In this document: positions 1 to 26,304 of the stretch, piece by piece | How the letters are laid out: every line of letters starts with the position of its first letter | How positions within the stretch are numbered: the first letter of the stretch is position 1 | Assembly: GCA_949299755.1 (NCBI GenBank) | Contig: CASGBA010000003.1 | Coordinates: 62,001 to 126,000, forward strand | Direction: 5' to 3' | DNA length: 64,000 nucleotides | From: an uncultured Treponema sp. | GTDB taxonomy: Bacteria > Spirochaetota > Spirochaetia > Treponematales > Treponemataceae | Notes under the pieces: generated by a model | Told to the model about the DNA's origin: nothing | What the model saw: only the letters and a program-made list of their open reading frames with translations | The model's database searches: none | Translations under genes and position numbers: made by a program

Positions 1-279
1 CGAAGGAATTTCCCTGATTACTTTATCGGTAGAAGAATCTATTACTTTGACAATAACTCTGTTTAATTCCTTACTGACATGAAATTTCAATTCCCGGTTG
101 AACATATCCGCTATTTTCTGTATTTGTTCAACCGCGGCGGAAATATCCATTTCTTGTTGAACCGCCTCCGGTTTTTTTTCTTCGGCAGGCTGAATCCGCA
201 CTGAACCGTTCGGTATTTCTTCTACGCGGCGATCCATTGCCGTCAGTTGCTGCCCGATGCCTGTAATTTCCATACTCAT
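1..279 (-). CDS. flaG: FlaG family flagellar protein (3' part beyond window)
   Basis: The first 93 codons are present and the gene runs off the left edge. The N-terminal part is variable and charged. The second half reads as the conserved FlaG core: an amphipathic stretch with FNRELKFHVSKELNRVIVKV followed by VIDSSTDKVIREIPS, the family's usual signature. FlaG proteins are small flagellin-associated proteins thought to influence filament length; they have no known catalytic activity. The ATG at 279 is preceded by a good GGAGG six bases upstream; a second in-frame ATG two codons later is less well spaced. It lies downstream of flaB copy 1 on the same strand, separated by about 220 bases holding two hairpins, so it may be cotranscribed or separately transcribed. 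The family call is secure; the C-terminal end cannot be judged. Confidence 0.85.
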   Translation of the reverse strand, partial: MSMEITGIGQQLTAMDRRVEEIPNGSVRIQPAEEKKPEAVQQEMDISAAVEQIQKIADMFNRELKFHVSKELNRVIVKVIDSSTDKVIREIPS

Positions 280-387: not shown

Positions 388-498
388 CCTGTCTTAAAAA
401 GAGGAAGAAGAATGGCGCTTCTTCTTCTTCCCGTGAACGGCTTTTCCGTTCAAGTTCCGCAAAAGGTGACGTCCAGTAAGCCTCTTACGGAGTTACGT

Positions 499-1353
499 TC
501 ACTGCATCAGTCTGAGAACTGACTGCGGCTGCGTATTAGCTTGTGCAACCATTGCGATGCCGGCCTGGCTAAGGATCTGGTTTTTGGTGAAGTCTACCAT
601 TTCCGCAGCCATATCGGTGTCCCGGATGCGGGATTCCGCTGCCTGCATATTTTCTGCGGCAATTGCGATTCCATTATAAGCCATCTCAAACCTGTTCTGG
701 TATGCACCGAGATCGGCACGCTGTTTGTTGATGGTTTTCAATGCGGAATCGAGAGCCGCTATGGCCATATTAGCGCCTTCAACAGATGACAATGAAATCA
801 TAGAATCTTCCGCTCCTTGCGCTCCAGTAAGACCGAGAGCTGTCGCTGTCATAGTCCCGATATAAATTGTTTCATTCTGGTCGACGTTGGCGCCGATATG
901 AAGTTGCATCGGTCCCATGGCGGAATCACGGGCAAAACGTCCTGTAAGAATATTCATCCCGTTGAATTGCGCGTGGCTTGCAATGCGGTTGACTTCATCC
1001 ACAAGCTGTGAAACTTCCACCTGAATCTGCATTCTGTCTTCAGCTGAATAAATTCCGTTTGCAGCCTGGATTGAAAGTTCGCGGAGCCTTTGGACAATGT
1101 CCGTCGTTTCCCCCAGATACCCTTCAGTAGCCTGGATAAACGAAACTCCGTTTTGGATGTTTTCACCGGCTTGATTGAGACCACGGATTTGTGTCCTCAT
1201 TTTTTCGGAAACAGCAAGTCCGCTGGCATCATCCCCGGCGCGGTTAATCCTCTGACCGCTTGAGAGCCGCTCGATGTTGTGCTGCAATCCGCTTTCAACT
1301 ACAGAGGACTGCCGCTGGGCATACATAGCGCTCAAATTGTGGTTGATAACCAT
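499..1353 (-). CDS. flaB: Flagellin FlaB, copy 1 (284 aa)
   Basis: Core subunit of the periplasmic flagellar filament. From the ATG at 1353 the protein begins [14 protein letters not shown], the hallmark spirochaetal FlaB N-terminus. The conserved helical D0/D1 segment continues with [20 protein letters not shown] and the [22 protein letters not shown] block. The C-terminal D0/D1 helices ([40 protein letters not shown]) are complete. Length matches the FlaB family, and as usual for this class there is no large variable D2/D3 insert and no signal peptide, as expected for export by the flagellar type III system. The reading frame stays open for 85 codons upstream, but the ATG at 1353 has AGGAGG 8 bases upstream and gives the conserved N-terminus. 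Copy 2 lies immediately upstream on the same strand, 379 bases away. Confidence 0.97.
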
Positions 1354-1732
1354 ATTTTGACCCTCCTTGAAGATTCTTCCGGTATGCATTCCTTGCATTC
1401 CGGCCGTCCGTGTTTCGGTTCCTGCGGAAGCGCCTCCGCAGAATGGCCGGACCACGATACGGAAGGTAACGCTTAAATCTGCCACGGGACAGACAAGAAA
1501 CGGAACCTTCCGTACCGTACCGGAAGAACAGGAGGTATTTGTCAAAGAACCCTGTATATATCGGTCTGAAACCAGACAAAGATATATACTCAGAATCCAT
1601 AATAACACATTTTAATATTTTTTTATACAGTTTTCTTTAAAAAAAAGCTGTTAAATGACAAAAATCCTTGAAAACCGCAGGAATACACGCGCCGGAGTTT
1701 CCCTCCGGCACGCATATCCGCACGTTCTATGC
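1354..1732 (-). promoter_or_regulatory. 379-bp flaB intergenic region, weak sigma-28-like site
   Basis: This is the non-coding leader of flaB copy 1. The only sigma-28-like match I see is a weak one: a -10-like ACCGATAT (1557-1564, minus strand) with, 11 bases further upstream, a poor -35 (TATCTTTG, 1576-1583). A TTGACA at about 1540 without a good -10 is the alternative sigma-70 reading. The long leader also has pyrimidine-rich and GC-rich stretches. The end of this region nearest copy 2 holds the hairpin described separately. No small gene is convincing here. Confidence 0.3.
1691..1709 (-). terminator. Hairpin behind flaB copy 2
   Basis: Perfect 7-bp arms GCCGGAG (1691-1697) and CTCCGGC (1703-1709) with a 5-base loop lie 24 bases past the stop codon of flaB copy 2. 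On the minus strand a T-rich but not continuous stretch follows. It may act as a weak terminator or an mRNA 3' stabiliser; partial read-through into copy 1 is possible. Confidence 0.45.
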
Positions 1733-2593
1733 TTATCTGAGAAGCGACAGAACCTGCTGGCTGGTTGCATTTGCCTGGGCCAGCATCGCAGTTCCAGCCT
1801 GCGAGAGGATCTGATCCCTGGTGTAGTCAACCATAGCCTGAGCCATGTCAGCGTCACGTATGCGGGACTCAGAAGCCTGCATATTTTCCGCCGCAACGTT
1901 CAGACCGTTAACGGTATGGCCGAGCCTGTTCTGGTAAGCACCAAGGTCCGCGCGCTGTTTGTTGACGATTTTCAACGCTGCATCCAGCGTTCCAATCGCC
2001 CTGTTCGCAGAATCCTGGGTTTCAAGGCTCATGATGCTCTCATCGCCCAGATCCCTTACACCAAGGGCGGCGGCGGTCATCGTGCCGATGTAGGCGCGCA
2101 TACGCTGATCCATGTTGGCACCAATATGGAACCACATTGATCCGCTTATGACGTTTTCGCCTGTTTCGCGCGCGAAACGACCTGTGAGCAGGTTCATACC
2201 GTTGAATTGCGCCGAGCTTGCGATTCTGTCCACTTCCGCTACCAACTGGGACACTTCAACCTGGATTTGCATCCTGTCTTCCGCGGAATAAATACCGTTG
2301 GAAGCCTGGATGGCAAGTTCTCTGATGCGCTGAAGAATGTCGGTGGTTTCCTGCAAGTAACCTTCGGTTGTCTGGATGAAACTGATACCGTTTGACGCAT
2401 TCTGTGAAGCTTGGTTGAGACCCCTGATCTGACTGCGCATCTTTTCAGATACTGCCAAACCGGAAGCGTCATCGCCGGCTTTGTTAATGCGCATACCGGA
2501 CGACAGTTTTGAAATGTCGTTGTGGATGGCACCGTTCGTGATTCCAAGTGTCCGCTGTGCGAACATTGCAGAAAGGTTGTGGTTGATAATCAT
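1733..2593 (-). CDS. flaB: Flagellin FlaB, copy 2 (286 aa)
   Basis: Second core flagellin of the periplasmic filament. It starts [14 protein letters not shown] at the ATG at 2593, with GGAGGAAA just upstream. The N-terminal block [20 protein letters not shown] and the C-terminal block [14 protein letters not shown] ... [23 protein letters not shown] are intact. It closely resembles copy 1 in length and layout; differences concentrate in the centre (about residues 130-190). Spirochaetes typically carry several FlaB proteins around a FlaA sheath; no flaA is in the window. Unlike copy 1, this gene has a clear sigma-28 promoter about 120 bases upstream of the start codon, so it is expected to be a late flagellar gene. 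Confidence 0.97.
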
Positions 2594-11356: not shown

Positions 11357-13411
11357 CTACAATTTGAATTTGGACAGGAGTTTATTCATATTGTGGATAC
11401 TGTCGGTTGTGTTTTGAGCCAGAATCTGGGTTTTTTGGGCGGCAGTATTAATACCGTCTGCACTGTTTGATATATTCGACATACTTTCTTCCACCAATTC
11501 TCCTATGGATTCCAGCTTTTTAAGTTCTTCCGTAACAGAACCGATATTTGTTCCCATCTGTTTGGAAGTGTTCTGGACATGGCTTGAAGAATCTGTTATA
11601 TCCCGGAGCGCAAGTAAAACCTGTTGAGAAGCTTCTTTTTGTTCCGTCATGGCATTGTCTATTTCCTGTACAAGGTTTTCTGTACTGGAAACTTTTGATG
11701 TTATTTCCGCAAAATCCTGGACAGAAAGTTTGGAAGCTTCCACAACCGATGTGATTGTCTTGGATATGTTCCCCAGTTCAACCTTAATTGTCTTTGACTG
11801 GGTTGCGGAATTCTCCGCCAGTTTTCTTATTTCGTCCGCAACAACGCTGAAACCTTTGCCGGCTTCTCCTGCATGGGCCGCTTCGATGGCCGCATTCATA
11901 GCCAGGAGGTTTGTTTGGGAAGCTATCTGCGCAATCACGTTGTTCGCTTCCGCCAAATGCTGGGACTGGGCCGCCATTTCCTGTATTTCCTGTGCCATGC
12001 GATCCTGCTGGGTTTTACCTTCGGCAGTTATGTCACTTAAAAGCTTGTATTCTTCCGCCATTTTATTCACTGAATTTGAAACGGAGGTTATGTTCCCCAC
12101 CATTTCCTCGATTGATGCGGAAGATTCGACTATGGCCGCCGACTGGTTTTCAATTTGTCCGTCAAGACCTTCTATTCCTTGGGAGGAACTCTCCAGGACA
12201 TTGTGGACGGACCGTCTGGCGAGGGATTGGCTTTCCATATGGGATTTAATTGTGCTTATGTCCCCTATAATACCTTCGATAGATTGGGCGGATTGTTTCG
12301 CCTTTACACTTAGTTCCCCGCTGATTTCCGTTAGGGAACCGCATAGGTTTTTCATTTCTGTTATTATGTAATGTTGGTTTTCCACGAACTTATTTATATC
12401 AGAACAGATGACACCCAGTTCATCATTTCTGTGTATATTCAGTTTGTATGTAAGATCCGCCTCGTTTTTGTTGTTCAGATTTTCGAGGGCTTTTTGGACA
12501 TTCTTTACAGGTTTCATGATTATTTTGGAAATCAGTATGGCCACAATGATCCATGTTAGAAGCATCAAAAATCCCAAACCGACAGCGATGTAAATTATAA
12601 TACGGTTTTTAATTGCATTGATACTTGCGGAGGAAATGCCAATAAAGTACATGGCTTGCCTCCCCGGTTCATCTGCGTCAATCGCAAAATATGCGCTTAT
12701 GTATTTTTCTCCGTTTATAATATTCTCTCCATAGTAAATGTTTCCGTTGTTATAAACGGTGCGCATTATTTCATCATTTCCGAGACGGGTTTTTACTATG
12801 TAATTATTGTTTTTGTCTTTTATTGTTGTGCTTATCCGTAAATCCCCGATAAAAACAGTCATTTCACATGAAAGTCTGTCAGACCATTGGAGCAAATATT
12901 CAGTGTTTGCCACTGATTTCTGGACTACAACAAATCCTGCTGATGTGGGGGCAACCGCTGTAATGACCACGTCTTCAGTGGTAATTGAAACCGTGGAAAA
13001 CACATCGTTTTTCTGGCTGGCTCCTTTGAAGGCAGTCTGCTCCGAACCCAAATCCATCTGGGTTCCTGCCCCGGCGGAAAAAACCGGGGTGCCGTTTTTA
13101 CTTATAAGGGCGGCGGTTTGTATGTTCAGGAAAAGGCAAGCTTGTTCGAGCAGGGAATTTATTTCGCCGGGAGACTCCATGTTATTCATTTGATCCGCCA
13201 AAAAAAGAGCCGTTGACTTTGTTTCTTTCGTTATGGTCCCGAATTCCTTGTTAATTGATACCACGCCGCTGTGTAGATTTCCAGAATATGTGTCCATCAG
13301 GTAATTATTTATTATGAAAGAAATGACTGCATAAATCAGTGCGCAACATATTAAAAAAGTTATGATTGATGGTAAGATTATTTGGGAGTACAAGGATTTT
13401 TTGTTATTCAT
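11357..13411 (-). CDS. Methyl-accepting chemotaxis protein (684 aa)
   Basis: Transmembrane chemoreceptor that signals through CheW and CheA to the flagellar motor. Residues about 10-37 form the first membrane helix, about 38-270 an external sensor domain of the size and pattern of a Cache domain, and about 271-296 the second helix. A HAMP domain follows (297-350). The cytoplasmic signalling tip holds the hallmark [20 protein letters not shown] and [19 protein letters not shown]. Gln/Glu-rich heptads on both sides are candidate methylation sites. No pentapeptide receptor tether is visible at the C-terminus. The ATG at 13411 has a strong AAGGAGG. A possible -35/-10 pair is TTGCTT, 18 bases, TAGAAT. 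It is divergent from glyA; the ligand is unknown. Confidence 0.95.
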
Positions 13412-20173: not shown

Positions 20174-21382
20174 TTAAAACTGTATGGAGGATGCCTCTTC
20201 CTTTGTTAAAGGCCTCTCGATATACACAGTGTATTCGCTGGTTTCTATTGTTTTTGGAGTGCCGTCGGATCTGTATTCACCCAAAAGCTGGACAACAGGG
20301 TATTTAGGGTTTTCCGGGTTTATGTCAATCACCTGGCCTTTCCGGTTGTCTGACAGGAGTACATAAAGCCCAATAGGGTAGAGTGATAGAGAAAGCAGGA
20401 GGGCATGGATAACCGCACTGTCATACTGGTGCCCCTGATTTTTCAATATGTCCACAATTCCGCTGTAAGCGTCTTTGCTTTCCTTGAAAGGTCTTTTTGT
20501 GGTGGCGGCTTCGTAGGAACAAGCCACCGCTATTATTTTCGCATATATTGAAATTTGATCTTTCACAAGCTTTCTGGGGTATCCTGTTCCGTTTTCTCTT
20601 TCATGGTGCTCCAATGCCCCCAGACAGATATTCAGGGGGAAGGAAAATTCCCTCAATATGTTGTAAGAAATTACAGGATGGGCTGTTATGGCGTTTTTTT
20701 CCTGTTGGTTGAGGGGCCTGCTGCTGGTATAAAGCTGTACCGGCAGCCTTACCATTCCGATTTCATGGAGGATACAGGCTGTGGCCAGTTCTATCATTTT
20801 ATGGGGAGGGAATTTCAACTGCATGGCAATTGCAATGGCAAAAACAGTTGAACGCAAAGAATGGGCTGCCAGATATGTTTTTCCTCCCTGGTTGCTTTCC
20901 GGTTGGATTCTCAATATGTAACGTCTGTTTCCCCTCATAAAATCGCAGAATTCCTTCATTTTTGAGGTGACATCATTCATGGACAGGAATTTCCGCTGCA
21001 TATATCCTGCGTACACTGCTTCCACATAGGTTAAATATTTTAAATATGTGGTTTTGACAGAGGAAATTTTCTCTTCCTCTTTCGTTAATTTTGTGTATTC
21101 TGTGCCCTCTTGGCTGCCTTTTTCCGCCTCGTCAATAAGGGTTTCCAGTTCATTGTCAAGTTGAGTATCAATTTCCGCTTTTTTGATTTGTGCAAGAACC
21201 GGGGAATTCATGACAATTTCCCCTTCTGAGAATATTTTTTGAAAATCCCAGTCCAGCATCTCTTTTTTTAGTGTGGCTGAAATAGGAACGCCCGGCACAC
21301 AAACAAGAAATTTCTTGTCCAAAAGCGCATCTTTTTCAAAATATTTGTCTTCCTGCAAATCAGACACCTTAAAAGTATTCAC
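20174..21382 (-). CDS. HD-GYP domain protein with altered HD motif (402 aa)
   Basis: Cyclic-di-GMP phosphodiesterase-type protein. The N-terminal 170 residues are variable. The HD-GYP domain (about residues 170-330) has the family's HSLR helix, a C-terminal HHERENGTGYPRK signature and the downstream D-x-x-S/T-like spacing. The metal-binding HD dyad, however, reads LHEIGM rather than LHDIGK, so Asp is replaced by Glu and the following Lys by Met. It may still bind metals, or it may be a c-di-GMP effector. A C-terminal extension of about 70 residues follows. The start is a GTG at 21382 with AGGAGG nine bases upstream. It is divergent from the membrane-protein gene. Confidence 0.85.
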   Translation of the reverse strand: MNTFKVSDLQEDKYFEKDALLDKKFLVCVPGVPISATLKKEMLDWDFQKIFSEGEIVMNSPVLAQIKKAEIDTQLDNELETLIDEAEKGSQEGTEYTKLTKEEEKISSVKTTYLKYLTYVEAVYAGYMQRKFLSMNDVTSKMKEFCDFMRGNRRYILRIQPESNQGGKTYLAAHSLRSTVFAIAIAMQLKFPPHKMIELATACILHEIGMVRLPVQLYTSSRPLNQQEKNAITAHPVISYNILREFSFPLNICLGALEHHERENGTGYPRKLVKDQISIYAKIIAVACSYEAATTKRPFKESKDAYSGIVDILKNQGHQYDSAVIHALLLSLSLYPIGLYVLLSDNRKGQVIDINPENPKYPVVQLLGEYRSDGTPKTIETSEYTVYIERPLTKEEASSIQF

Positions 21383-21431
21383 TTATCCTCCTGTCTCATA
21401 GTACACTGTATCACATAGTGGAGTTCTTGTC

Positions 21432-22319
21432 ATGAAACTGAAAATTTTATTTGTTGTTTTAAATCTTCTTTTTATCGGTGTTTTTGTCCTGCTTTTTTCC
21501 GCGGTTTTTGTCGTTGTCCCCTTTTCTCTGGGAAACTCCGAAACCGCCGGAGCCGGACTGACTGCCACCCCCGGAATTTACATTTCCGCCGGTGTTTGTC
21601 TTTTGTTCCTTCTGATGATTATTGTGGCGGATGTTTTTTTTATAAAACATATGAAGGTTTTTGAATTCCTTGCAGCTGAAAACTGGCCGGCCCTTGCCAG
21701 AACTTTGGAAAAGCAAACCATAACTCAGGGAAAATTCTCGAAAATGAATGTTTCCCTTTTAACGGAGGTTTTGGTCCTTTTGTCCGATTACCCCACGATA
21801 AAAACCCTTTTTTCAAAGCTTAAGTCTGAAAAACCGGCTCTTTACTGCCGTTTCGCGCCGGATTTTACGGCGGCATCCATTGTTTTCGGCAGTTTGGATG
21901 AGGCTGAGTCCTGTGTGAATTATGCGCTGGATTGTGAAAGGCGGAGTCCTGGGTCTTACGGAGGGATAAAAAGTTGGCTTGAATTTTATTCCGCCTTTAT
22001 CGCCATGAAAAAGAAAGACTTCGTGAAGGCTCTGAATGGGTTTTCGGCCCTCGCTTCCGGGGCGGATGATTTAATTGTGGCGGCAGTTTCCGGGTATTTT
22101 TGCTCTGAGATCATCCCCGGTAAAACCTTTGGAATAGGACTGGGGGCTTCCAAAGAAAGCGCCGCAGCCGCCGCTCTTTCCGCCCGGGAAAGGGTTCTTC
22201 AAGCCTGTTCATTGGAAAAATGGAATAAGCTATGCGCCGGCAGCCGTAAAAGGGTGCGGGCCGCTGTTATTGGTAAAACCCTGATAGATGTAAGAAGCTG
22301 GCTTTTCCCTGCCGCTTAG
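21432..22319 (+). CDS. Two-helix membrane protein of unknown function (295 aa)
   Basis: No recognised family. Residues about 5-30 and 48-72 are membrane helices with a short Gly/Thr-rich loop between them, so the N-terminal hairpin anchors a large cytosolic domain. Residues 85-295 are helical with an A-x-x-Y/F pattern reminiscent of TPR-like repeats (LDEAESCVNYALDCE, KKDFVKALNGFSALA). The ATG at 21432 has GGAG at good spacing. It is convergent with the small sigma-28-type unit on the other strand. Confidence 0.7.
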   Translation: MKLKILFVVLNLLFIGVFVLLFSAVFVVVPFSLGNSETAGAGLTATPGIYISAGVCLLFLLMIIVADVFFIKHMKVFEFLAAENWPALARTLEKQTITQGKFSKMNVSLLTEVLVLLSDYPTIKTLFSKLKSEKPALYCRFAPDFTAASIVFGSLDEAESCVNYALDCERRSPGSYGGIKSWLEFYSAFIAMKKKDFVKALNGFSALASGADDLIVAAVSGYFCSEIIPGKTFGIGLGASKESAAAAALSARERVLQACSLEKWNKLCAGSRKRVRAAVIGKTLIDVRSWLFPAA

Positions 22320-22337
22320 GAAGTTTTAAAGGGATTT

Positions 22338-22457
22338 AAAAAACTAAAGGAGTCGATGTACAACGACTCCTTTAGCCCGCACCCTTCACCGGTACGGATA
22401 TCTTGTCTCCAGAAACGGCGTCTGGATGTCTTACCGCCGTTTTGCTTTCCGATGACA
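22338..22457 (-). ncRNA. Sigma-28-driven short transcript, about 120 nt
   Basis: A self-contained transcription unit in the gap behind the maf-like gene. A sigma-28-type promoter (22464-22490) predicts a start near 22457, and a perfect 12-bp hairpin plus six T ends it at about 22338. Inside is an 8-bp stem AAACGGCG/CGCCGTTT (22413-22420 with 22435-22442), which competes with an alternative CCAGA/TCTGG pairing (22409-22413 with 22421-22425). It also covers a 28-codon reading frame, so it could be a regulatory RNA, a tiny mRNA or both. I do not recognise it as any known RNA family. Confidence 0.5.
22344..22375 (-). terminator. Intrinsic terminator, minus strand
   Basis: Perfect 12-bp arms at 22344-22355 and 22364-22375 with an 8-base loop. 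On the minus strand the stem is followed by six T (22338-22343). It would end the short sigma-28-type transcript and any read-through from the maf-like operon. On the plus strand the hairpin lacks a T run but may protect the 3' end of the opposing gene. Confidence 0.85.
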
Positions 22458-22458
22458 T
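22372..22458 (-). CDS. Possible 28-residue microprotein
   Basis: A frame of 28 codons starts ATG at 22458 and ends TAA at 22372, inside the terminator stem. It fills nearly the entire short transcript. The peptide is polar (Ser/Lys/Val-rich, starting MSSESKTAVRHPDAV) with no membrane segment. There is no Shine-Dalgarno sequence and the start codon almost coincides with the predicted transcription start, so translation would be leaderless. I recognise no homologue. The coding reading is uncertain; a chance frame in a small RNA is the main alternative. Confidence 0.3.
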   Translation of the reverse strand: MSSESKTAVRHPDAVSGDKISVPVKGAG

Positions 22459-22463
22459 TAAAA

Positions 22464-22490
22464 GTATCGGAATGTTTTAATTTAACTTTA
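22464..22490 (-). promoter_or_regulatory. Sigma-28-type promoter of the short transcript
   Basis: On the minus strand: TAAAGTTA (22483-22490), 11 bases, TCCGATAC (22464-22471). This matches the TAAAGTTT, N11, GCCGATAA consensus at seven of eight and six of eight positions with exact spacing, and resembles the promoter of flaB copy 2. The -10 half lies within a 7-bp palindrome (22447-22453 with 22466-22472). Confidence 0.75.
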
Positions 22491-22508
22491 CAGGAAAAAA
22501 TATTTTTT

Positions 22509-24458
22509 TTATTTTTTTTTCAAGGCAGATAAGTTTTTCAGGGCGGCTTCCGTTATTTTACTGTAAAATTCCATGGATTTTGAGGTTATCTCAAAGAAGG
22601 GAAGCCCGGTTCCCGGTGATTCCTCCGGTTCGCCCGTGTTTTTATCCGTGTTTTCGCTGTCCGATTCCCCAGTAAATGTCATGGCCAGCACATCTTTCAC
22701 CGGATGATTTTTTATTTGCGTATCGATTATTCCTAAATCTAGGGAAAACTCCTTCAAAATACCGTCCCGGGTAGAGGGTGTAACCGCTTTTATAATTTCA
22801 TTTTGAAAACGGCGGCATCGGTTTTCTCCTCTTTCCGCTAAAATAAGGATTTCTTTTAGTCCTTTTTCCAGTTCATCTTGTGCCAGTATAAAAGCTTTTT
22901 CTATTTTTGAGGTTTCCTCCGGATCCAGACCCCCTTTCCATGCTTTTTCCAATATGGAATTCAAGTCGCAACGGCAATCCGGCAGATTTAAAAGGTTTTC
23001 CACCGGAACCGGTTCCATCCCGGGTATTCTTATGCCCCTGCCTTCCAAAATAAAGGTTTTTATTTCCGGATGTCTTGTTGCTGCGGCTTCAAACCACCAG
23101 GCATATAAATTCAGTCTGCGGTCAGTTAAAACCTGTTTTTCTCCATATCCCGCGGTATAAAAAATTCCTCCGGATAATAAGGCTGCGGCCGCTCCGGTTT
23201 CCGCGGGGGAGAGGCGGCAGGATTCCGAAAGGTTTTTTTCCTCAAAAAGCGCTCCCCGGAAATGGGTGGCTTTATCCGGATATCCTAAATCCAATCCGGC
23301 CGCATAAATGGTGGATGATCCAGTGTATCTGGCAAAATCCCATGCGGTTGTTGCCACCGAGCCGCCGGCCCCCAAAGCTCCCTTTTCTTCCGCTCTGGAT
23401 TCGAGGAATTTTCCCAGAGGAAACAGAGATGAGCATAGGAAAATGTCCCTGCATTTGAATCTGAATACAGCCGGATATGCTGCCGATTCTGTTATTAAAA
23501 AGGTGTTGCCGCTGGAAAGTCCTGCTATATGCCTGTAATTCCAATATTGGGGATCCACAAGCAGAAGGAAATCCGGCTGAACCCCCGACCTCAGGCATGC
23601 CCGCAAGGCTGTATCCACCGCCACAACCAGGCATTTTTTTTGCAGTTTACCTAAAATTGGCAGTACGGCATCAAGTCCAGGGCCGGCGGCTAGCAGAAGA
23701 ACGGGGAATCCGGTGAAAATACCTTTGAATCGGGAAATGCCCCGGCGTTTACCCATTTCCGGAAGATTTTTTGACATGTTTTTAAGCCACAGTTCTCCGA
23801 ACCTTTTAAGTGTGTTTTGATTAATCCCCCGTTTTTCCTTGTTCCGTTTTATTATTTCCGAAAAACTGTCAAACCAGTCCTGGTTTGGCTTTATTAGGGC
23901 CGGGGGCATGAAAATAGAAACAGGTTCCACACTGTTTTGGAGGATTTCTTCCACAGCGGTTGCACTGTCGAAGGCTGAAAGGCCTATGAAAAGGGCTGTG
24001 TTTTTTTTTGTGAATAGTGGGGTCATATCCTTGCTTTTTATGCAAAGCAGGAAAATAAAAACGTCCGGTTCCACTATTGTAACCGGAGCATCCGGGAAAC
24101 GGGAAATATATTCCAGGCAATAATAACCCAATCCCAGTCCTCCGAAAATGCATCCGTTTTTTGAAAAAGTGCCGTCGGTGGTTTCAATTGCCCGGCAAGC
24201 TTCTCTTTCCGGGTTGTATTTGGAATGGAGGGAAAAGCCCCCCACAAATAGCAGCGGTTGTCCTTCCCGGGAAAAATCCGTCTTGTAGTTTTCAGGAATT
24301 TTTTCCATAAGTTCCTGAATCCTTTCATCTGTGTCCAAACACAGAATAGAAGCCAATGCCGGAAAGTTTTTTTTCAAACAGCTTAAATTCCGTCTGAAGA
24401 TTTCCCCGGAATTGGATTTTTCCGGGATAGGGGATTCCTTATTCAAGTTTGAGTTCAA
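22509..24458 (-). CDS. Maf/MptE-like motility accessory protein (649 aa)
   Basis: Large cytosolic protein of the motility accessory factor family (DUF115, 6-hydroxymethylpterin pyrophosphokinase MptE-like). Maf proteins in other bacteria are needed for flagellin glycosylation, transferring nonulosonic-acid-type sugars. The central domain shows GFPVLLLAAGPGLDAVLP (about residues 250-267), then CLVVAVDTALRACLRSGVQPDFLLLVDP and the later GAGGSVATTAWDFARYTGSSTIYAAGLDLGYP, the normal family order. The start lies inside the 3' end of the PBP gene (20-bp overlap), so it is cotranscribed with it. In a treponeme the likely targets are the FlaB proteins, two of which are in this window. The exact sugar is unknown. 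Confidence 0.8.
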   Translation of the reverse strand: MNSNLNKESPIPEKSNSGEIFRRNLSCLKKNFPALASILCLDTDERIQELMEKIPENYKTDFSREGQPLLFVGGFSLHSKYNPEREACRAIETTDGTFSKNGCIFGGLGLGYYCLEYISRFPDAPVTIVEPDVFIFLLCIKSKDMTPLFTKKNTALFIGLSAFDSATAVEEILQNSVEPVSIFMPPALIKPNQDWFDSFSEIIKRNKEKRGINQNTLKRFGELWLKNMSKNLPEMGKRRGISRFKGIFTGFPVLLLAAGPGLDAVLPILGKLQKKCLVVAVDTALRACLRSGVQPDFLLLVDPQYWNYRHIAGLSSGNTFLITESAAYPAVFRFKCRDIFLCSSLFPLGKFLESRAEEKGALGAGGSVATTAWDFARYTGSSTIYAAGLDLGYPDKATHFRGALFEEKNLSESCRLSPAETGAAAALLSGGIFYTAGYGEKQVLTDRRLNLYAWWFEAAATRHPEIKTFILEGRGIRIPGMEPVPVENLLNLPDCRCDLNSILEKAWKGGLDPEETSKIEKAFILAQDELEKGLKEILILAERGENRCRRFQNEIIKAVTPSTRDGILKEFSLDLGIIDTQIKNHPVKDVLAMTFTGESDSENTDKNTGEPEESPGTGLPFFEITSKSMEFYSKITEAALKNLSALKKK

Positions 24459-26304
24459 TTCTCATCCCCTCCTCAACTGGGGTGCCGGGCGGAGGACTTT
24501 GTTCCACAACGTATCCGTCTCCGCTGATGGAAACAAACAAATCGGTACGGGATAAAAGATCCGTAAGCATTTTTTTCGATATTCCCCTTAAATCCGGCAT
24601 TACATCCCCCAGCTTAACCGGCTCATTCCGGGGTACAATTATTAAACCGGTGTGGCTGACGGAAGTGGCCCTTGCCCGGCCCAACCCGAGATAGTCTATT
24701 ATACTGTTTGCGGCCTTTGAAATTACCGGAGCGGCGATTCTTCCTCCATAGGTTTCCCCAAGAGGCTTGACAATTACCAGATACAAGATTATTTCCGGAT
24801 CATCAGCCGGAAAAATTCCCATACAGCTTGCTATAAAATCTGATTGGCTGTATCCACCGGTTTCAGGATCTATCATTTGGGCAGTTCCTGTTTTTACGGC
24901 AATGGGGACATCTCCTACGGAGGCCCTGGCTCCGGTTCCGCTTTCGGCTGTTCCCTGCATATATGAAAGCATTAAACCGGCGGTTTCCGGCTTTATAGGG
25001 TTTCCCTGGGGGACCGGGTGATGGGTGAAAACAGGAACCCCATCGTGGGAATAAACTTTAGCAAGAAGGGTTAATTTCAGCCTTTCCCCTTTGTTCGCAA
25101 TGGCTGTGGCAGCTTCCACCATTTGAAGGGCAGAGACGGAAATTTCCTGACCCATGGCTATTGTTTGTTTGGATCTTAGGGACCAGGTTGAATTTGATTT
25201 AAAAATACCGGCTGTTTCTCCAGGTAATTCTATTCCGGTTTTTGCCCCGAATCCGAAACTTCTGAGTTTAGCTTCAAAATCACTGTTGGCGGCTCTTTCC
25301 GCCATTTGGGCTGTGCCGTCGTTGCATGAAAAACGTATTACCCCGCCGGGATTCAACCATCCATGGTGTTCAAGACAGCTTATACGTATTGAAGCCCCGT
25401 TGGGTGATGTATACACATATAAACCGTCGCACAGGAATTCATCACTGTCTTTTACAAGTCCCATGTCCAGCAATGCGGAAATGGAGAAAATTTTAAAGAC
25501 TGAGCCAGGCTCATAGGCATATAATGCCGGCCTGTCCTGGCGTTCCGATACGGAACTTTGGGGGAATTTGTTCAAATCCGCGGAAGGCTCGCTTATATAA
25601 GCTAGTATTTCCCCGTTGGAAGAATCCGCCGCTATCATTATCACAGCTTCTGCGTGGGTATTTTCCATTGTTTCAGCCGCAATTTTTTCAAGCTCATACT
25701 GAATGTTACCGTCTATTGTCAGCATAATGTTATAACCGGATGGTGATACCTCTGACAGGGAAGCCGGCGGTGACAGGGTTTCTTGGAAAGAATATTCAGC
25801 TCCCGTCAAACCGAAGCCGTCTTCTCCCACAAAACCCACCACGTGGGAAGCCAGCTTGTTTTCCGGGTAAGTGCGGCTTTGAACGGGTTCGAGCCTTAAC
25901 CCCCTCAAGGAATTGGATTTAACCGCTTCAGAAACAAGATTCTTTTCGTTTTCCGTTATACGTTTTTTCAGGTAAAAAAAGTCACCGGAATCGTCCTTCA
26001 ATTTTTCAAGAATGTCGTCTCTGGAAATACCGGTTATGGGTGCAAGAGTATCGGCGAAAAGATCCTTGTCCTGTACTGCGGAACGGGTTACGGCTATATT
26101 GTAAAGGGTCGTTTGAATGGCTAGTATTTTCCCGTTTCTGTCTAAAATGGAACCTCTTTCAACATTGATTTTTGGCTGGACTTGTATTTCTTTCGGGGAA
26201 AGCATTATCGATGCGTAAGAGAAAATAATCCCCCCGGTGATTGCAGCAGAAATCACAGCGATAAAAATGAGCCGCTTTTTTGAAACAAAGCTGTTTTCTT
26301 CCAT
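24439..26304 (-). CDS. ftsI: Class B penicillin-binding protein with one PASTA domain (621 aa)
   Basis: Septal or elongation peptidoglycan transpeptidase. There is one membrane anchor (about residues 10-32). The N-terminal dimerisation module with ERGSILDRNGKILA follows, then the transpeptidase with SVFK (268-271), SCN (326-328) and KTG (471-473), all in place. The final 60 residues form one PASTA repeat (VMPDLRGISKKML ... VVEQSPPPGTPVEEG), a peptidoglycan or beta-lactam binding module common in FtsI/Spo VD-type proteins. It overlaps the maf-like gene downstream. The FtsI assignment is favoured over PBP2 by the PASTA domain and the domain order; no division gene cluster is adjacent. Confidence 0.88.
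   Translation of the reverse strand: MEENSFVSKKRLIFIAVISAAITGGIIFSYASIMLSPKEIQVQPKINVERGSILDRNGKILAIQTTLYNIAVTRSAVQDKDLFADTLAPITGISRDDILEKLKDDSGDFFYLKKRITENEKNLVSEAVKSNSLRGLRLEPVQSRTYPENKLASHVVGFVGEDGFGLTGAEYSFQETLSPPASLSEVSPSGYNIMLTIDGNIQYELEKIAAETMENTHAEAVIMIAADSSNGEILAYISEPSADLNKFPQSSVSERQDRPALYAYEPGSVFKIFSISALLDMGLVKDSDEFLCDGLYVYTSPNGASIRISCLEHHGWLNPGGVIRFSCNDGTAQMAERAANSDFEAKLRSFGFGAKTGIELPGETAGIFKSNSTWSLRSKQTIAMGQEISVSALQMVEAATAIANKGERLKLTLLAKVYSHDGVPVFTHHPVPQGNPIKPETAGLMLSYMQGTAESGTGARASVGDVPIAVKTGTAQMIDPETGGYSQSDFIASCMGIFPADDPEIILYLVIVKPLGETYGGRIAAPVISKAANSIIDYLGLGRARATSVSHTGLIIVPRNEPVKLGDVMPDLRGISKKMLTDLLSRTDLFVSISGDGYVVEQSPPPGTPVEEGMRIELKLE

Follow-up and report, generated by a model that had tools for sequence, protein, structure and literature searches.

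Loop-loop pairing between two RNA hairpins underlies the kissing antisense systems OxyS-fhlA, FinP-traJ and RNAI-RNAII. Small RNAs (sRNAs) driven by sigma-28 are known from Escherichia coli, where UhpU, MotR, FliX and FlgO belong to this class and sRNAs base-pair with the flagellin (fliC) mRNA and alter flagellin levels (PMC10578931). The E. coli RNAs co-purify with Hfq and overlap mRNA regions; FliX derives from the 3′ end of fliC, and the reported fliC contacts lie mostly within the coding sequence (PMC10578931). In Campylobacter, CJnc170 (FlmR) is an unprocessed, FliA-dependent non-coding RNA with its own gene, which affects flagellar length and motility (PMC11187230). The Termite-flg RNA (Rfam RF01729) is a conserved RNA of spirochaetes, and is a cis element upstream of the second flaB flagellin gene. 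The transcriptome of T. pallidum includes ten intergenic transcripts, none of which is named as a sigma-28-type sRNA in the accessible part of that report (PMC12223175). No sigma-28-dependent sRNA was described for treponemes in the literature that we searched, from which subscription journals and preprints were mostly absent.

The 64-kb stretch of treponeme DNA analysed here (the window) contains a previously undescribed Treponema-group sRNA gene, whose predicted loop matches a hairpin of a flagellin gene. A sequence-only reading of the window had proposed that a flagellum-timed sRNA would be new; as a general statement this is contradicted by the examples from E. coli (PMC10578931) and Campylobacter (PMC11187230). 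Like the E. coli RNAs, the treponeme sRNA appears to be sigma-28 driven, but it is an independent gene, we saw no sequence relation between them, and its match is a loop-loop match to a 3′ hairpin. CJnc170 shares the independent gene, but differs in its length (47 nt), suggested targets and phylum, and the accessible portion of its description reports no loop-loop contact with flagellin mRNA (PMC11187230). Termite-flg lies near the same flaB gene, but is a cis element, unlike the proposed trans-acting sRNA with a 3′ target hairpin. Compared with OxyS-fhlA, FinP-traJ and RNAI-RNAII, the putative treponeme pair is trans-encoded, is located at the 3′ region of a flagellin gene and displays matched changes across genera.

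A sigma-28 transcription unit behind a Maf-type gene

The features of the sRNA locus are as follows.

22509..24458, minus strand: Maf-type/MptE-like gene (PF01973, by domain match), directly upstream of the sRNA; linkage kept across genera
22463..22490, minus strand: sigma-28 promoter of the sRNA gene, TAAAGTTA-N12-CCGATACT, identified by sequence
22338..22458, minus strand: sRNA of ~120 nt, with the 5′ end inferred from the promoter and the 3′ end from the terminator
22372..22458, minus strand: open frame of 28 codons, which we do not regard as a gene
22412..22443, minus strand: kissing hairpin 1 of the sRNA, stem AAACGGCG...CGCCGTTT, supported by covariation (alignment A3) and covariance model R1
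22422..22430, minus strand: loop of hairpin 1, GACAUCCAG, the proposed pairing seed, predicted to be unpaired in the fold
22338..22375, minus strand: intrinsic terminator, by sequence and fold

The near-consensus promoter that had been noted from the sequence is present, with TAAAGTTA at 22490-22483 and CCGATACT at 22470-22463 of the minus strand, and its spacing of 16 nt from TAAA to CCGATA is the commonest in the family. With a weight-matrix score of 22.8 it is the best sigma-28 site of the window, and none of 12 Markov-shuffled windows reached this value (maxima 14.5-19.9); it should be noted that the 87 sites used to build the matrix include this one, a small circularity. The flaB copy had been singled out as the only other clear sigma-28 site, which is not upheld: the flaB-proximal match (2726, minus strand) scored 13.4, lower than the shuffles yield. 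The second-best sigma-28-like match of the window, at 11520-11548 of the plus strand (TTAAGTT...CCGATATT; 11541), lies within a chemotaxis-receptor gene on the opposite strand.

The terminator and the flanking genes are also as first read. A perfect 12-bp hairpin (22375-22344) is followed by T6 (22343-22338) on the same strand, ~120 nt in all, and the unit is flanked by the Maf/MptE-like gene on one side and, on the other, by a convergent gene whose product is predicted to be a membrane protein. The folding stability of the sRNA exceeded that of 200/200 shuffles (z = -5.9), and Rfam 15 covariance models gave no match in window positions 21300-24600, even at E<=5. The sigma-28-type promoter at the 5′ end would place the RNA in the sigma-28-dependent class.

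Conservation of the sRNA in the family

Across the intergenic region, two congeneric genomes show 86% and 75% identity, and the short matches found in other genera correspond to hairpin 1, each with a sigma-28 promoter just 5′ of it. Hairpin 1 is the conserved element, rather than the competing stems to which the first reading had pointed. The motif GCGGU-N0-8-GACAUCCAGACGC was found in 25 of 274 family genomes, always 3′ of a CGATA-type -10 element, and the reversed control found none. A scan of named genomes returned Treponema parvum (NZ_CP054257.1), a T. brennaborense assembly and many uncultured treponemes; matches outside the spirochaetes were discarded because they resemble coding sequence and lack a TAAAG -35 box.

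Covariance model R1 of hairpin 1, built from 33 sequences, matched 182/274 genomes of the same family in 14/20 genera, nearly always as a single copy per genome with very few second matches; the 92/274 genomes with no R1 match are incomplete, diverged or devoid of the RNA. Stem covariation was 0.498 compared with 0.168 in shuffles. The loop GACAUCCAG is nearly invariant across the family while the stem covaries. Promoter and terminator were judged present by eye in 36/38 newly fetched R1 matches; one exception (locus L133 of genome G077) was a false match, a different terminator that matched in both orientations, and was discarded, the true G077 copy being located later. A promoter-first pattern search of the same family matched 123/274 genomes, and the reversed pattern matched fewer.

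The sequence-only reading had made the unit depend on retention of the promoter in relatives, and a counterpart precedes nearly all orthologous hairpins. The upstream sigma-28 promoter is present in nearly every copy examined and a terminator in most, and the majority follow immediately after a Maf/DUF115 gene. The unit usually begins a few dozen bases past the stop codon of a same-strand Maf-type gene, and we therefore regard the Maf neighbourhood as a conserved linkage. The promoter, the covarying hairpin and, usually, the terminator being conserved, the suggestion of a flagellum-timed product is strongly supported for an sRNA, and not for a microprotein.

The loop of the terminator, GUGUGAGG, is preserved despite stem changes in genus g4 and some related genera only (e.g. 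L034-L048). It was considered as a second seed on account of its frequency in g4, and was dropped as it is missing in several other genera.

A complementary hairpin behind the second flaB gene

The complement of the sRNA loop, TCTGGATGTC, was searched in 24 genomes and 20 sites were inspected. Four sites, from three genera, were positioned directly behind a flagellin gene and inside a small hairpin. The main point that the first reading had missed is that, at the level of sequence, the sRNA loop is complementary to a hairpin of flagellin mRNA. In the window, this region is arranged as follows.

1733..2593, minus strand: first flaB of a tandem pair (domain match), without the target hairpin behind it
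499..1353, minus strand: second flaB of the pair (Flagellin_N and Flagellin_C), the proposed target on its 3′ side
457..490, minus strand: flaB 3′ hairpin, the proposed target hairpin, CCGUAAGAGG-CUUACUGGACGUCA-CCUUUUGCGG, supported by covariation (alignment A6)
468..476, minus strand: target loop CUGGACGUC, in which 8/9 bases can pair with GACAUCCAG, with one A.C mismatch
396..432, minus strand: second, terminator-like hairpin GGAAGAAGAA...UUCUUCUUCC and U run between flaB and flaG, by sequence and fold
1..279, minus strand: flaG (PF03646, by domain match), downstream of flaB and running off the window

The hairpin 3′ of the second tandem flaB was found in every family genome inspected in this way, including the T. 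pallidum-like genome G021; other flaB copies do not carry it, except for two look-alike 9-mers, one of which is far from the stop codon. Its stem covaries (0.442, compared with 0.196 in shuffles), and its loop, between the second flaB and flaG, is CUGGAUGUC, the exact complement of GACAUCCAG. The gene order 3′ of the hairpin is the terminator-like hairpin and then flaG. One-mismatch seed sites were not clearly enriched in the window (6, with 2.8 expected; 7/100 shuffles had as many), and four flaB 3′ loci had no Rfam match at gathering score.

In the second hairpin (396-432, minus strand, and equivalent loci), the loop GCGCC is kept across families (UGCGCCCC, UCGCGCC). The G021 flaB 3′ hairpin (L263) has the loop UUUCGGAUGUC, for which no partner sRNA was found with the patterns used.

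Identity of either the target hairpin or the sRNA with Termite-flg (RF01729) was rejected, as matches to that covariance model fall upstream of flaB and not at either hairpin. Such matches were observed upstream of the second flaB in a second family of the order, f5 (L369:514-619, L358:2449-2569 and L361:2436-2542, one of them in a single-contig 4.06-Mb genome). Window positions 1375-1474 hold a sub-threshold match at the equivalent place (23.8 bits, with a cut-off of 40).

Matched changes in the two loops

The sRNA loop and the flaB loop are complementary at 9/9 positions in 50/53 genomes. After collapsing by genus and type, 19/21 pairs match where shuffling yields 9.0 (p = 2e-5), in a test that does not model the tree; the identical matched change recurs in separate genera. 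Matched loop changes were observed in at least genera g3, g4, g9, g15 and g20. The sRNA loop GACAUCCGG is paired with the flaB loop CCGGAUGUC in g15, in G029 of g9, in G091, G101 and G127 of g4 and in G033 of g20, and G010, the g9 sister of G029, has the common loop pair. The sRNA loop AACAUCCAG accompanies the flaB loop CUGGAUGUU in five g20 genomes and in G136, G176 and G209 of g4, and GACGUCCAG accompanies CUGGACGUC in three g3 genomes.

The sRNA loop variants were determined without reference to flaB, save for the T. denticola-type, g9 and G033 copies, for which each variable position could be either A or G in the search pattern. The flaB variants were taken by position past the stop codon or with the flaB-hairpin model. 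As the extraction patterns were limited to the variation listed here, rarer loops may have been missed. Imperfect pairs (3/53) comprise the window's genome (G000) and G001, both with an A.C mismatch, and G009, with an end mismatch. Predicted duplex energies extend from -12.5 kcal/mol, for the window's pair of CUGGACGUC and GACAUCCAG, to -21.1, with -17.1 for the sister genome G002.

In the predicted folds, both stable hairpins leave their loops largely unpaired, and complementary loops presented in this way have the architecture of a kissing complex. Conserved complementarity to a distant mRNA, with matched changes, is the pattern that a trans-acting, base-pairing sRNA would leave in the sequences.

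In addition to its matching GACAUCCGG unit, genome G033 (L337, L346 and L327) has two extra sigma-28 units with the altered loop GACAUCCAUA. The region behind the third flaB of this genome yielded no partner for GACAUCCAUA.

Prediction of the sRNA loop in a second family

The flaB-hairpin model also matched other families of the order, including f5, mostly with the loop CUGGACGUC, from which an sRNA loop GACGUCCAG was predicted. A promoter-plus-GACGUCC search of 100 f5 genomes identified 18 with sigma-28 RNAs bearing the predicted GACGUCCAG. All 18 place the loop within a GACGGUGCGC...GCGCAUCGUC-type hairpin, which has a U run at its end and so would double as the terminator. The reversed pattern also matched around ten of the f5 genomes, and hence the f5 evidence is carried by the shared hairpin and terminator and not by the count. 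Because the predicted loop was imposed, the search tests the existence of such RNAs and not the identity of the loop; the f5 genomes in which flaB loops were determined differ from those with sRNA matches.

Alternative explanations

The reading that we favour, very probable on the sequence evidence, is a stand-alone, sigma-28-dependent non-coding sRNA acting in trans by loop-loop kissing with the 3′ hairpin of flaB mRNA. An unlikely alternative accepts the pairing and reverses its purpose, with flaB mRNA soaking up an sRNA whose important targets are other mRNAs. On general grounds flaB mRNA should be highly abundant, further exact sites exist in the genomes (nine more in the window's genome, for example), and the two additional GACAUCCAUA copies of G033 would suit such a sponge. 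However, among the sites inspected only the flaB site recurs at the same position across genera, and those inspected in the window's genome fall inside or antisense to unrelated genes.

Somewhat less likely again is a role in which the flaB loop is a CsrA site, and the sRNA competes with CsrA on the flagellin message. This is conceivable because every flaB loop seen retains GGA and csrA is present in 9/10 genomes tested, ~6 kb from flaB in the window's genome. In T. denticola, CsrA sites near the flaB1 and flaB2 Shine-Dalgarno sequences and a fliW-csrA cluster have been proposed, with CsrA as a translational layer on both genes (PMC9481697). Nonetheless, the A that normally opens A(N)GGA is missing from the flaB loop, the invariant UCC in the sRNA accounts equally for the invariant GGA, and G009 (99% complete) keeps both RNAs with no csrA detected.

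The strong conservation of GGA and UCC in the two loops might also reflect a common protein that binds both hairpins, with complementarity as a by-product; this is very improbable, as each loop complements the other instead of resembling it, and in several lineages a change in one has its match in the other. We give almost no weight to a 28-residue microprotein. The 28-codon frame read from the sequence exists, and its ATG near the inferred transcript start would make a leaderless mRNA conceivable, but the suggested check for codon conservation failed even within the genus: G002 has lost the stop codon and G001 has an altered frame. Loop-length indels and rewritten stems disrupt any frame across the family, so that no frame persists between genera and the conservation expected of a small protein is absent from the sequences. 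An ordinary maf terminator beside a chance promoter match is equally remote and already contradicted, for although maf transcripts could also stop at the hairpin, many genera conserve promoter, hairpin and loop together.

Implications for flagellin expression

Overall, the first observation of this locus was partly confirmed and its interpretation partly supported. The sRNA gene, its promoter, the two hairpins and the co-evolution of their loops are shown by sequence comparison. From these we infer that the two RNAs meet in the cell. In the proposed mechanism, sigma-28 RNA polymerase would transcribe the stand-alone non-coding sRNA gene, and hairpin 1 would expose the loop GACAUCCAG. This loop and the CUGGAUGUC loop in the 3′ untranslated or intergenic part of flaB mRNA could then form a kissing duplex of up to 9-11 bp, behind the second tandem flaB and just ahead of the terminator-like hairpin and the flaG start. 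With less certainty, the contact may tie late-flagellar (sigma-28) activity to the flaB message, through its stability, its 3′-end processing or its read-through into flaG. As the site is 3′ of the flaB stop codon and well 5′ of the flaG start, an effect on stability, 3′-end formation or flaG read-through is likelier than one on flaB initiation.

We speculate, with about even conviction, that the sRNA damps the target flagellin, or balances it, relative to the flagellin driven by sigma-28; our next guesses would be that it protects the message or controls read-through. Taken as a whole, a two-RNA circuit in at least two treponeme-type families, in which a co-evolved kissing pair couples late flagellar transcription to the flagellin-flaG message, is likely, although we hold it a little less firmly than the kissing sRNA itself. 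As the target comes with base-level predictions, the circuit is testable by loop swaps, and both the sRNA and its target are present in T. denticola-type genomes, which come from a group that can be cultured and for which genetic tools exist.

The circuit bears on how spirochaetes balance their several flagellins. Transcription of T. denticola flaB2 depends on sigma-28, and that of its other filament genes on sigma-70 (PMC9481697). By gene order, we read the target gene as corresponding to the flaB1-flaB3 pair and not to flaB2, in which case the sRNA could link the two sigma regimes: a sigma-28-made sRNA touching the flagellin message would be a direct connection between them.
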